The translations under genes and the position numbers were made by a program. Shown in pieces: positions 2,864 through 14,719 of a stretch of 24,637 bases of DNA (positions within the stretch are counted from its first letter, which is position 1; each line of letters opens with the position of its first letter). The notes beneath the pieces are model-generated. The model had not been told where the DNA came from, did not search any database, and saw nothing but the letters and a program-made list of their open reading frames with translations. This DNA comes from a virus. The stretch covers positions 1 to 24,637 of IMG/VR virus record IMGVR_UViG_3300021088_000031; one strand, given 5' to 3'.

Positions 2864-3181
2864 TTAATATTCTATAAAACCTTGTTTGGTCGAATTTATT
2901 AAGTTGATATATTCCGACTTTCGCAACGGCCTGAAATCATCGTCGTTAAAATATTTTACTATGGCTTCTTTTGAGCCGTCTCCTACCTTCATAAACATTC
3001 CATCAGTTAACATACTTATAAGCCCGTATGATTTATCACCGCCAACATTAAACCCAACCTTAAACGACACCGTACAAGCAAAAGATAAATCAGTAGTCCC
3101 TAAAGATGACGAGTTTTTTATTACATAAAGTCCGCATTCTATGTCCTTGACATCCCATTTTGCGGTAAGTGTTAATTTCAT
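2864..3181 (-). CDS. Hypothetical phage protein, 105 aa
   Basis: Beta-rich N-terminal two thirds with many Gly and Ser (GLYVIKNSSSLGTTDLSF) and an acidic and basic C-terminal part. No signal peptide and no recognised domain. The ATG is one base from the stop of the gene at 3183. A plus-strand frame at 2886-3128 is a shadow. Confidence 0.65.
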   Translation of the reverse strand: MKLTLTAKWDVKDIECGLYVIKNSSSLGTTDLSFACTVSFKVGFNVGGDKSYGLISMLTDGMFMKVGDGSKEAIVKYFNDDDFRPLRKSEYINLINSTKQGFIEY

Positions 3182-3182
3182 A

Positions 3183-3371
3183 TTATTTAAGTGATAAATT
3201 ATATTCTGATTGAAGTCTTAATAATAATTGTTCTCTTGTTTCTGTTTTCTGAACATCTCCGTAAAATATTTCTATTTCATACCACAGGCATAACCAATCA
3301 TTTGATATACCCGTTTTTTTAGAAATTTCAGGTATTTCATTTATAATGGCGGATTTTATTACTTCCTTCAT
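3183..3371 (-). CDS. Hypothetical small phage protein, 62 aa
   Basis: Two predicted helices (KEVIKSAIINEIPEISKKTG and EQLLLRLQSEYNLSLK) separated by a Trp-containing segment (WLCLWYEIEIFYGD). Its length and pattern fit a small helix-turn-helix-like or adaptor protein, but no family is recognised. It begins 14 bases after the hairpin at 3385-3407 in the direction of transcription. Confidence 0.6.
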   Translation of the reverse strand: MKEVIKSAIINEIPEISKKTGISNDWLCLWYEIEIFYGDVQKTETREQLLLRLQSEYNLSLK

Positions 3372-3384
3372 TGTTTTTAAATTA

Positions 3385-3407
3385 AGCCCGGTTTTTAAGG
3401 CCGGGCT
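3385..3407 (-). terminator. Hairpin, weak terminator or attenuator
   Basis: AGCCCGG (3385-3391) pairs with CCGGGCT (3401-3407), loop 9 nt. On the minus strand it follows the gene at 3416-3751 and is followed by TAATTT rather than a full T tract, then by the next ATG, so partial termination is plausible. Confidence 0.6.
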
Positions 3408-3415
3408 ATTTGTGA

Positions 3416-3751
3416 TTAAAAATTGTAATCGTAAAATCTTACAGGCCTGTCGCCTAAAATGAATTTGCGACCGTGTGCATCTTGCTATTGACGTTTTGCG
3501 GCTGAATATCTAACTTTAATCACTGTGTTATCAGTGTTTGAAGTATAGTTATAATCTTGTTTGTCTTGGTCAGCGCAATTAGCTGAAAAACCGCCTACGT
3601 GAAATTGTGAAGGAAATACAGTTTGTTCGTAATCCATTGCGCGAACTTCGATACATTTTTCTGATACTGTTTTTACAACTTCATAAGGGGTTACATCTGA
3701 ATAACCGTAGTTGTTAGCGAATTTTGCTGTGGTTGAATTTAAAGTTTCCAT
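3416..3751 (-). pseudogene. Hypothetical phage protein interrupted by an in-frame amber codon (88 aa + 22 aa)
   Basis: The first 88 codons run from ATG at 3751 to TAG at 3485-3487. In the same frame, coding continues for 22 convincing codons (QDAHGRKFILGDRPVRFYDY and on) to TAA at 3416-3418. From memory, small phage proteins with the order FHVGGFSxxCADQxxQDYxYTSN and then a W-x-D-A-H-G-R tail ending YDY-N-F form one continuous family, so Trp (TGG) at the TAG position is the likely ancestral residue; this is inference. The context is CAA-TAG-CAA. The gene has a strong Bacteroidota promoter upstream (3789-3819) and is probably the first gene of the transcript running left. Whether the product is truncated, read through or inactive cannot be decided here. 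Confidence 0.7.
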
Positions 3752-3788: not shown

Positions 3789-3819
3789 CAAAGATAAACA
3801 AACTTTTTATATTTGCAAA
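3789..3819 (-). promoter_or_regulatory. Bacteroidota-type promoter for the gene at 3416-3751
   Basis: On the minus strand TTTG (3819-3816) is followed by exactly 19 bases and TATCTTTG (3796-3789), matching TTTG-N19-TAnnTTTG. The start codon lies 38 bp downstream of the -7 box. Confidence 0.75.
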
Positions 3820-4378: not shown

Positions 4379-4417
4379 ATACTCTAAAATAAAAATGACG
4401 TGGACTGCATTACTCCC

Positions 4418-4526
4418 GCAACTCTCGCCCTACCAGGGGCCAGCAACGCAAATAAGCAGCCACGCCATGACGGCGCACTCTATTTTTCGCGTTGCTGTTT
4501 TTCTTAGCCTGGTAGTTGAGAGTTGC
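4418..4526. ncRNA. Long three-step inverted repeat, candidate structured RNA or cruciform element
   Basis: Three perfectly complementary arm pairs are nested: GCAACTCTC (4418-4426) with GAGAGTTGC (4518-4526); CTACCAGG (4430-4437) with CCTGGTAG (4508-4515); CAGCAACGC (4441-4449) with GCGTTGCTG (4489-4497). They are separated by internal loops of 3/2 and 3/10 nt. The 39-nt apical region contains a smaller stem CGCC (4463-4466) / GGCG (4472-4475). In all, 26 bp pair in the main stem plus 4 at the tip, and the island is clearly more GC-rich than its surroundings. No reading frame of note lies in it. It could act as RNA on either strand or as folded single-stranded DNA; no named RNA family is recognised. 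Confidence 0.6.
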
Positions 4527-4736
4527 AACAAAAAAATGAAGTACAAATATCTTTATATATCAAACATATAAAAAAAGCTGTGATTATCATAAGTTATTAA
4601 ATTAATCAGGTCAACAAGTGTAACAAATTTATTACTGACTTTTTTTAAAAAGCTTATTGATTTAACACTTTTTTAACAAAAGAAAATTTATTTACGAATT
4701 TTTGATAAAGTTCAGGATAGCTACAGAATTTAATAT
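4527..4736. other. AT-rich noncoding stretch, nothing further recognised
   Basis: The remainder of the 445-bp gap between the RadC-like gene and the secreted-protein gene at 4737 is very AT-rich, with many short A and T tracts and a TTTTTTTAAAAA run near 4645-4655. I see no open frame with coding character, no strong hairpin terminator for the operon ending at 4737, and no iterons. Confidence 0.5.
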
Positions 4737-5165
4737 TTAATTGGTGGCTTTATTTTTTTGGATAAGCATAAACCATTTGCTGTCATTCAGCCAGCGGACG
4801 TATTTGCGCTTGATGTGAATTACATATTTATCCTTGCTTGTGTCCGGATTGTCGATGCTCCAATGTGGCCTGTTGGGATATTCAAATTGTATCCATTCAT
4901 AGTGCAGCGGCATGTTTGCGACAAGGTTAAAAATAGGTTGCGTTAACATCGTGTACGAAGTAGTACGGTAATCCCTGAATATCTGCTCGGTGTATCCGGT
5001 TAACTTGTCATCGTGTATAACTGGCACGAGACATGGCACCGTATCAATCATAAATATTGCCGTTGCTTTACCTGTGTCGCAAGGTTTTAAGTTGGCAGTT
5101 TTAATCTTTTGCCCAAACAAATTAAGTGAGCAGATTATTAATAGGATTGTGGTTATTGTTTTCAT
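4737..5165 (-). CDS. Exported hypothetical protein, 142 aa
   Basis: A clear Sec signal peptide opens the protein (MKTITTILLIICSLNLFGQ, cleavage near GQ-K), a typical Bacteroidota form. The mature part is soluble and rich in aromatic residues, with two Cys at ~29 and 45 that could form a disulphide in the periplasm. No domain is recognised. The start overlaps the TGA stop of the upstream exported protein by 4 bp (ATGA), so the two are translationally coupled and may act together at the cell surface. It is the last gene of its operon. Confidence 0.75.
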   Translation of the reverse strand: MKTITTILLIICSLNLFGQKIKTANLKPCDTGKATAIFMIDTVPCLVPVIHDDKLTGYTEQIFRDYRTTSYTMLTQPIFNLVANMPLHYEWIQFEYPNRPHWSIDNPDTSKDKYVIHIKRKYVRWLNDSKWFMLIQKNKATN

Positions 5166-13984: not shown

Positions 13985-14719
13985 ATGAATACAGAACCAA
14001 TTGGCGACCGTATGAAGCGGTTGTATGAAAACGTTACACGCTATCAATTACAAGGCAGAACATATACTATTATACGTATAGATGGTAAAGCCTTTCACAC
14101 CTACACAAAGGGCTTAAAGAGGCCTTTTGATGAACAATTGATATTAGATATGGATGAAACGGCTTGTTATCTATGTAAAGAGATACAAGGGGCTAAATTT
14201 GCCTTTGTTCAATCAGATGAAATATCAATATTACTTACTGATTTTGATAGCTTAACATCACAAGCATGGTTTGACGGAAATATTCAAAAACAAGCCTCAA
14301 TAAGTGCGAGTTTAGCAACTGCAATGTTTAATCAACTACGTCCAGGAAAATTAGCTCATTTTGATGCAAGGGTTTTTCAAATAAGCGATAAAACAGAAGT
14401 TGAAAATTATTTTATTTGGAGACAGCAAGATTGCACACGAAATTCTATTTCATCCGTTGCTCAATCTATGTATTCGGCAAAACAATTGCATGGTAAATCA
14501 ACGGATAACATGCAGGAAATGATATTTCAAAAAGGTATTAATTGGAATGATTACGATCTTAAATTAAAAAGAGGCAGATTAATAACTAAATATCATTATG
14601 AAAAAAATGGGGCTATTCGTTCTAATTGGAAATCAATCGGGTGCCCTATATTCACACAAGAAAGAAATTTTATCAGTTTAATAATACCTGATAGAAATGG
14701 AATTAACCAATTAGGTTGA
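13985..14719 (+). CDS. Thg1-like protein (3'-5' tRNA nucleotidyltransferase), 244 aa
   Basis: Thg1-family enzymes add nucleotides to the 5' end of tRNAs in the 3'-5' direction; eukaryotic Thg1 adds G-1 to tRNA-His, while bacterial and archaeal Thg1-like proteins (TLPs) repair truncated 5' ends on a template. The signatures are clear: RIDGKAFHTYTKGLKRPFD (metal ligand Asp 33), FVQSDEISILL (Asp 78/Glu 79), HFDARVF at ~125, and NYFIWRQQDCTRNSIS at ~141-156. RNS rather than the eukaryotic HINNLYNT after WRQxDC points to the TLP type. The length is normal for the family and no key residue is missing. It lies opposite to its neighbours with its own -7 box and terminator, the arrangement of a phage moron gene. 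A role in repairing tRNAs damaged during infection is inference. Confidence 0.93.
   Translation: MNTEPIGDRMKRLYENVTRYQLQGRTYTIIRIDGKAFHTYTKGLKRPFDEQLILDMDETACYLCKEIQGAKFAFVQSDEISILLTDFDSLTSQAWFDGNIQKQASISASLATAMFNQLRPGKLAHFDARVFQISDKTEVENYFIWRQQDCTRNSISSVAQSMYSAKQLHGKSTDNMQEMIFQKGINWNDYDLKLKRGRLITKYHYEKNGAIRSNWKSIGCPIFTQERNFISLIIPDRNGINQLG

Follow-up and report, generated by a model that had tools for sequence, protein, structure and literature searches.

RadC is a member of the JAB-domain superfamily. Its part in repair is a matter of dispute; nucleic acid processing has been argued for as a possible function, and mobile elements and prophages are recorded as carrying it (PMC5512222). It is a very common protein of mobile elements, whether phages, plasmids or integrative elements, and its role is unknown. 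Among described structured RNAs, the radC motif (RF01754) is listed for Proteobacteria and is probably cis-regulatory according to its authors, and the same work lists Pedo-repair (RF01715) from Pedobacter and 6S-Flavo (RF01685) from Bacteroidota (PMC2864571). At the DNA level, Frpo-type single-stranded DNA (ssDNA) promoters of the F plasmid place a long stem-loop immediately ahead of early genes (PMC9849209).

The locus described here lies in IMG/VR record IMGVR_UViG_3300021088_000031, which was analyzed over its whole length of 24,637 nt (the window). The record carries an end-located tyrosine integrase fragment (phrog_1), a phage lysozyme gene and genes for tail-type proteins. A promoter of the Bacteroidota type that matches at all ten positions (TTTG-N19-TATCTTTG, 3789-3819, - strand) stands ahead of an 88-aa ORF (3485-3751), which points to a Bacteroidota host. 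A radC-like gene is present, and residues E38, H88 and D101 of its product fall in invariant columns of protein alignment A1, with H90 nearly invariant. No Lar-like gene was found in the early region. The window also holds a gene for a Thg1-like tRNA-His guanylyltransferase (13985-14719, + strand) with relatives on more than 100 IMG/VR contigs; the relatives L005-L084 yielded no homologue of the hairpin described below, and only one clear tail-gene relative.

A hairpin upstream of radC and its relative in a second phage

The gap between radC and a 142-aa ORF (4737-5165, - strand) is 445 nt long, and the hairpin occupies positions 4418-4526 within it. A sequence-only reading had described this hairpin as three nested arm pairs of 9, 8 and 9 bp around a tip with a stem of its own, forming a G+C island in an A+T-rich gap that was not expected by chance, and each part of that description was borne out. 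The outer arms GCAACTCTC and GAGAGTTGC (4418-4426/4518-4526) pair at 9/9 positions and the second arms CTACCAGG and CCTGGTAG (4430-4437/4508-4515) at 8/8, and the inner arms CAGCAACGC and GCGTTGCTG sit within a longer 15-nt pair (4441-4455/4483-4497). The apical stem was found on the - strand at 4461-4477, and the G+C content of the hairpin is 54%, compared with 33% and 20% in its flanks. The hairpin holds 26 nested perfect pairs, whereas the maximum in 2000 dinucleotide shuffles was 11. Both strands of 4400-4545 fold well outside the range of shuffled sequences (z of -3.7 for the + strand and -5.5 for the - strand; about -5.8 for the 117-nt core), and no other part of the window folds as strongly on both strands. 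The minimum fold energy of the + strand is about as good as that of the - strand, so energy does not separate the strands.

Direct searches for further copies gave little. The virus record contains no second copy of the hairpin, a 26-base pattern had no exact match in 85,000 genomes, and blastn against phages and plasmids returned A+T-rich noise only, with nothing significant. Exact half-arm patterns matched once each in IMG/VR, inside G+C-rich coding sequence of two unrelated phages (L002 and L094), and these matches were judged to be chance. Close relatives of the radC gene were likewise not found by single-protein search of IMG/VR and genomes. An alignment of Bacteroidota RadC proteins gave 80 phage radC loci, and the DNA 5' of radC at 89 phage and plasmid loci was scanned by folding with G+C correction followed by alignment. 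One relative was found among these 89 regions, at positions 2792-2942 of prophage record IMGVR_UViG_2898364685_000001 (L109), with the same architecture, directly 5' of radC and on the same strand. Aligned locally to the window RNA it scored 53; the remaining radC upstream regions averaged 22 (sd 3.6), and shuffled controls scored 21 +/- 3 (maximum 37, n=1000). It was also found by a covariance model made from the window sequence by itself, as the sole match besides the window in 0.54 Mb of radC loci (E 2e-7) and as the sole match in a further 1.5 Mb of phage DNA (E 5e-7). Since that model used only the window sequence, the match is independent of the two-sequence alignment. This relative had been overlooked by blastn and by the arm-motif patterns and came from folding the DNA upstream of a homologous neighbor gene.

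The letters common to the two copies are the 5' motif TTGTACTTC, the A-rich asymmetric loop, AGCAACRC, the apical CGCC....ATGGCGTRGCTG and the 3' motif ACGTCATTTTT, with a spacing from 5' to 3' motif of 136 nt in the window and 131 nt in L109. The arm sequences are not shared, whereas the unpaired letters and the shape of the stem are. Conservation runs past the hairpin at both ends, reaching 4391-4546 (Table 1). A pattern for the conserved tip had 62 matches in all of IMG/VR, and the sole real one, L190, is the same record as L109. With the two-member full-length model no further member came up in 50 complete phage and plasmid records that bear radC, in 93 radC loci or in 4 additional plasmid radC loci. 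Taken with the comparison below, there is little doubt that the hairpin is a conserved structured element.

Table 1. Positions of the RNA element, its parts and the adjoining genes (window coordinates, except in the last line)
Feature	Position	Strand	Basis or remark
Conserved structured RNA domain, candidate radC 5' leader, ~155 nt	4391..4546	-	Window-only covariance model match to L109:2792-2942 along the entire length; structural alignment A7
5' motif TTGTACTTC	4538..4546	-	Identical in L109
Helix 1, 5' arm (partner 4416-4426)	4518..4528	-	Two-sided changes in 5/11 pairs between members
Helix 1, 3' arm	4416..4426	-	Structural alignment pair counts
Helix 2, 5' arm (partner 4430-4437)	4508..4515	-	Two-sided changes in 3/8 pairs
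Helix 2, 3' arm	4430..4437	-	Structural alignment pair counts
A-rich asymmetric internal loop, 5' side, CTAAGAAAAA	4498..4507	-	A-rich in L109 too
Helix 3, 5' arm (partner 4441-4452)	4486..4497	-	Structural alignment pair counts
Helix 3, 3' arm	4441..4452	-	Structural alignment pair counts
Helix 4 and apical loop TGCGCC GTCAT GGCGTG, then conserved GCTG	4461..4477	-	Best-kept stretch against L109: CGCC....ATGGCGTRGCTG
3' motif ACGTCATTTTT	4391..4401	-	Identical in L109
Possible Bacteroidota-type promoter TATG-N19-TATGTTTG, 9/10 positions	4561..4591	-	Matches this good occur ~1 per 1.3 kb here, hence weak
radC-like JAB-domain gene, 139 aa	3872..4291	-	Pfam RadC E 3e-29; downstream of RNA, same strand
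L109 radC	2956-3393 (L109)	+	Start codon TTG at 2956

Several other elements were observed. The second-best upstream alignments (L119 and L124) were low-complexity matches and not homologues of the window RNA. These two phage records share another structured element 5' of radC (L119:220-390 and L124:2760-2930, TATGGGGAATGAAG...TCAAGGGCGGC...CCCTTGACATTATTTATTCCCC), preceded by a hairpin of CTTCCTTTTTCTTTG and CAAAGAAAAAGGAAG, with no Rfam match and no homology to the window RNA. A Bacteroides ovatus plasmid has a long nested inverted repeat (GGCGGGGAC...GTCCCCGCC, L097 ~1240-1380) upstream of radC, next to ardA. In a related phage (3300044832_000025, L093:1055-1334), AACTCTGTAAACTTT recurs in both direct and inverted orientation and forms an iteron- or operator-like cluster, and in Tenacibaculum phage Gundel_1 a Pistol ribozyme lies just downstream of the radC region (L104:2564-2642; Rfam, 65.6 bits).

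Compensatory changes and the strand bias

In structural alignment A7, which holds two sequences only and was fitted to the structure so that its pair counts lean towards that structure, pairing was kept at 98.6% over 37 pairs (69/70 pair cells standard), with 9 pairs changed on both sides and 7 on one side. None of 500 shuffles matched the pairing values of this alignment, and sliding the partner by 1-3 columns brought pairing down to 29-44%. All of the one-sided changes (7/7) still pair as G-U on the radC-sense strand, and the two members together have 8 G-U and 0 A-C pairs on that strand. On the opposite strand the one-sided changes would be A-C mismatches, which favors an RNA read in the direction of radC over a DNA palindrome. 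This suggests that the element very likely acts as RNA, on the - strand.

Known families did not account for it. Rfam at gathering level found no family in the whole window, and at E<=10 there was no family over the RNA; the single match, to SAM-II, lay in another part of the gap and was a chance one. The L109 region matched Rfam at chance level only (best STnc300, E 0.59), and ARAGORN found no tRNA or tmRNA. On the + strand, CTCCCGCAAC, TACCAGG and AAGCAGCCA are similar to segments of 4.5S SRP RNA; this similarity was dropped as chance, given that there is no Rfam match to SRP RNA and that it is not kept in L109. The suggestion of a candidate new structured RNA made from the sequence alone is thus strengthened by a diverged homologue with compensatory changes (the covariation it had proposed to look for in relatives, here 9 two-sided changes in the comparison with L109), by the lack of an Rfam match and by the lack of any repeat copy in the searches. 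The RNA is a candidate new family, with two members, of a known kind, the structured leader RNA.

A probable structured leader of radC and the alternatives

In both phages the hairpin directly precedes radC, on the gene's sense strand, a point missed by the sequence-only reading. The - strand RNA is probably transcribed together with radC and would form a structured, cis-acting 5' leader of the phage radC mRNA. Conserved structure with compensatory changes, as looked for in a putative cis-regulatory leader, was found in the two sequences. Transcription may start near 4555-4546, and the RNA would fold as it is made into one long interrupted hairpin, in the order helix 1, helix 2, A-rich asymmetric loop, helix 3 and apical hairpin, with a U-rich stretch ending the folded RNA ahead of radC. 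The fold could then limit or time radC output, with translation start, transcript processing (e.g. by RNase III) and readthrough at the U-stretch as candidate steps, and its partner might be a host factor, RadC itself or a small molecule.

In L109, a 14-bp stem with T5 (~2676-2720) closes the gene upstream of the RNA, and the start of radC is 13 nt past the end of the conserved block at 2942. This terminator and this spacing imply that the radC promoter lies upstream of or inside the RNA, and the RNA would therefore be the radC leader in L109, if the TTG at 2956 is indeed where radC begins. A dyad (GAAGTGCAA-N6-TTGTACTTC, L109:2777-2800) overlaps the 5' end of the RNA and is a possible repressor operator; its right half alone is kept in the window. 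Additionally, the proteins clearly common to the two phages are only RadC and the C-terminal part of the integrase, whose convergent gene radC faces in both (directly in L109, across ~10 small ORFs in the window). Both copies are 5' of radC while little else is shared, and this was counted against radC being a mere neighbor. It should be noted that there are only two members, that the RNA might end at the U-stretch, and that 88 other plasmid and phage radC genes are without the element, so the element is not general to radC. A further-reaching form of the leader reading is that the RNA would be one half of a phage RNA-RadC unit, in which RadC binds or processes the RNA, the pair acts against host defense or in lysogeny, and the RNA, radC and integrase move as a module between unrelated Bacteroidota phages; we regard this as improbable.

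A stand-alone - strand small RNA with its end in the U-stretch (~4391-4386), trans-acting and merely adjacent to radC, is rather unlikely, though several features fit it. The conserved 3' motif is accompanied by a nearby U-run in both members, and in the window ~100 nt separate the RNA from the start of radC, which leaves room for a second promoter and would allow a separate small RNA there. There is also a promoter-like block of its own, weak evidence in both cases: TATGTTTG lies ~15 nt upstream of the window RNA, and a similar T-rich CTTTTTTTATAT..TTGA block (TATAT..TTGA) lies upstream of the RNA in L109 too. However, the U-run begins 11-20 nt past the last helix in both members, no U-run directly follows the long stem on either strand, and the hairpin was not called as an intrinsic terminator. 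The 13-nt spacing in L109, which would need transcription through the RNA, and the shared position 5' of radC in phages with little else in common also argue for the leader over the small RNA. RNase III sites between cistrons are found in the early mRNA of T7, and a hairpin serving only mRNA processing or stability as such a site, with no specific ligand, would be long, dsRNA-like and intercistronic on one strand, as the window hairpin is; its mechanism is also compatible with the leader. As the whole explanation it is quite improbable, because the kept unpaired letters (5' motif, apical ATGGCGTRGCTG and 3' motif) exceed its needs and the upstream gene in L109 has a terminator of its own, so that the hairpin is not intercistronic there.

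Explanations at the level of DNA fared worse. Plasmid radC adjoins ardA, ardC-like and metallopeptidase genes, neighbors that suit a gene used early against host barriers, and anti-restriction genes are a class that ssDNA promoters such as Frpo drive in conjugative plasmids (PMC9849209). This, and the fact that both DNA strands fold well, would fit a cruciform or ssDNA hairpin serving as an Frpo-like promoter, replication start or packaging signal. Such an element is very unlikely given 8 G-T and 0 A-C pairs on one strand across the two members, DNA folds of the window and L109 that differ in the middle, and no iterons or replication genes recognized nearby. Tailed phages inject double-stranded DNA, and the record has phage lysozyme and integrase genes. 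Least credible of all, and by our estimate close to negligible, is a mobile palindrome (MITE, IS end, integron attC or REP-like). In its favor are the G+C island set within an A+T gap and a flanking direct repeat that is imperfect (16 nt, 81%), but A-rich repeats are to be expected in DNA of this kind, the hairpin is single-copy in the record and was not seen in plasmids, phages or, for the 26-base pattern, the 85,000 genomes, and L109 shares unpaired letters and stem shape rather than arm letters. The R and L boxes of attC are absent from the arm ends. The replication origin, packaging structure and mobile palindrome raised from the sequence alone gained no support.

Comparison with described RNA and DNA elements

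A conserved leader on phage copies of radC would offer a handle on the timing of RadC synthesis and also, should RadC bind this RNA, on the function of the protein. Few conserved RNAs are described from Bacteroidota phages, and this would be one more.

The Frpo-type promoters are similar in being long stem-loops directly upstream of early genes, and plasmid radC adjoins genes of the early class. However, Frpo works as DNA, whereas the two-member comparison here favors RNA pairing, and the carrier here, unlike the F plasmid, has the appearance of a tailed phage with double-stranded DNA. The 6S RNAs form long hairpins that an internal loop opens in the center. The element is like 6S-Flavo in being a hairpin RNA, in a family of ~108 positions, but its internal loop in the window is strongly asymmetric (10/3), and the RF01685 covariance model had no match at E<=10 in the window or the L109 record, in agreement with the earlier view that 6S RNA does not fit. 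Pedo-repair shares the Bacteroidota and is named for a possible DNA-repair context; its family model has 211 positions, and the RF01715 model had no match at E<=10 in either record. The radC motif is set apart by model score: the RF01754 model gave no match at E<=10 in the window or the L109 record, and the phages here are of Bacteroidota type. It is nevertheless similar to the element described here in being a structured RNA tied to radC, in lying 5' of that gene and in its length of 149 model positions.
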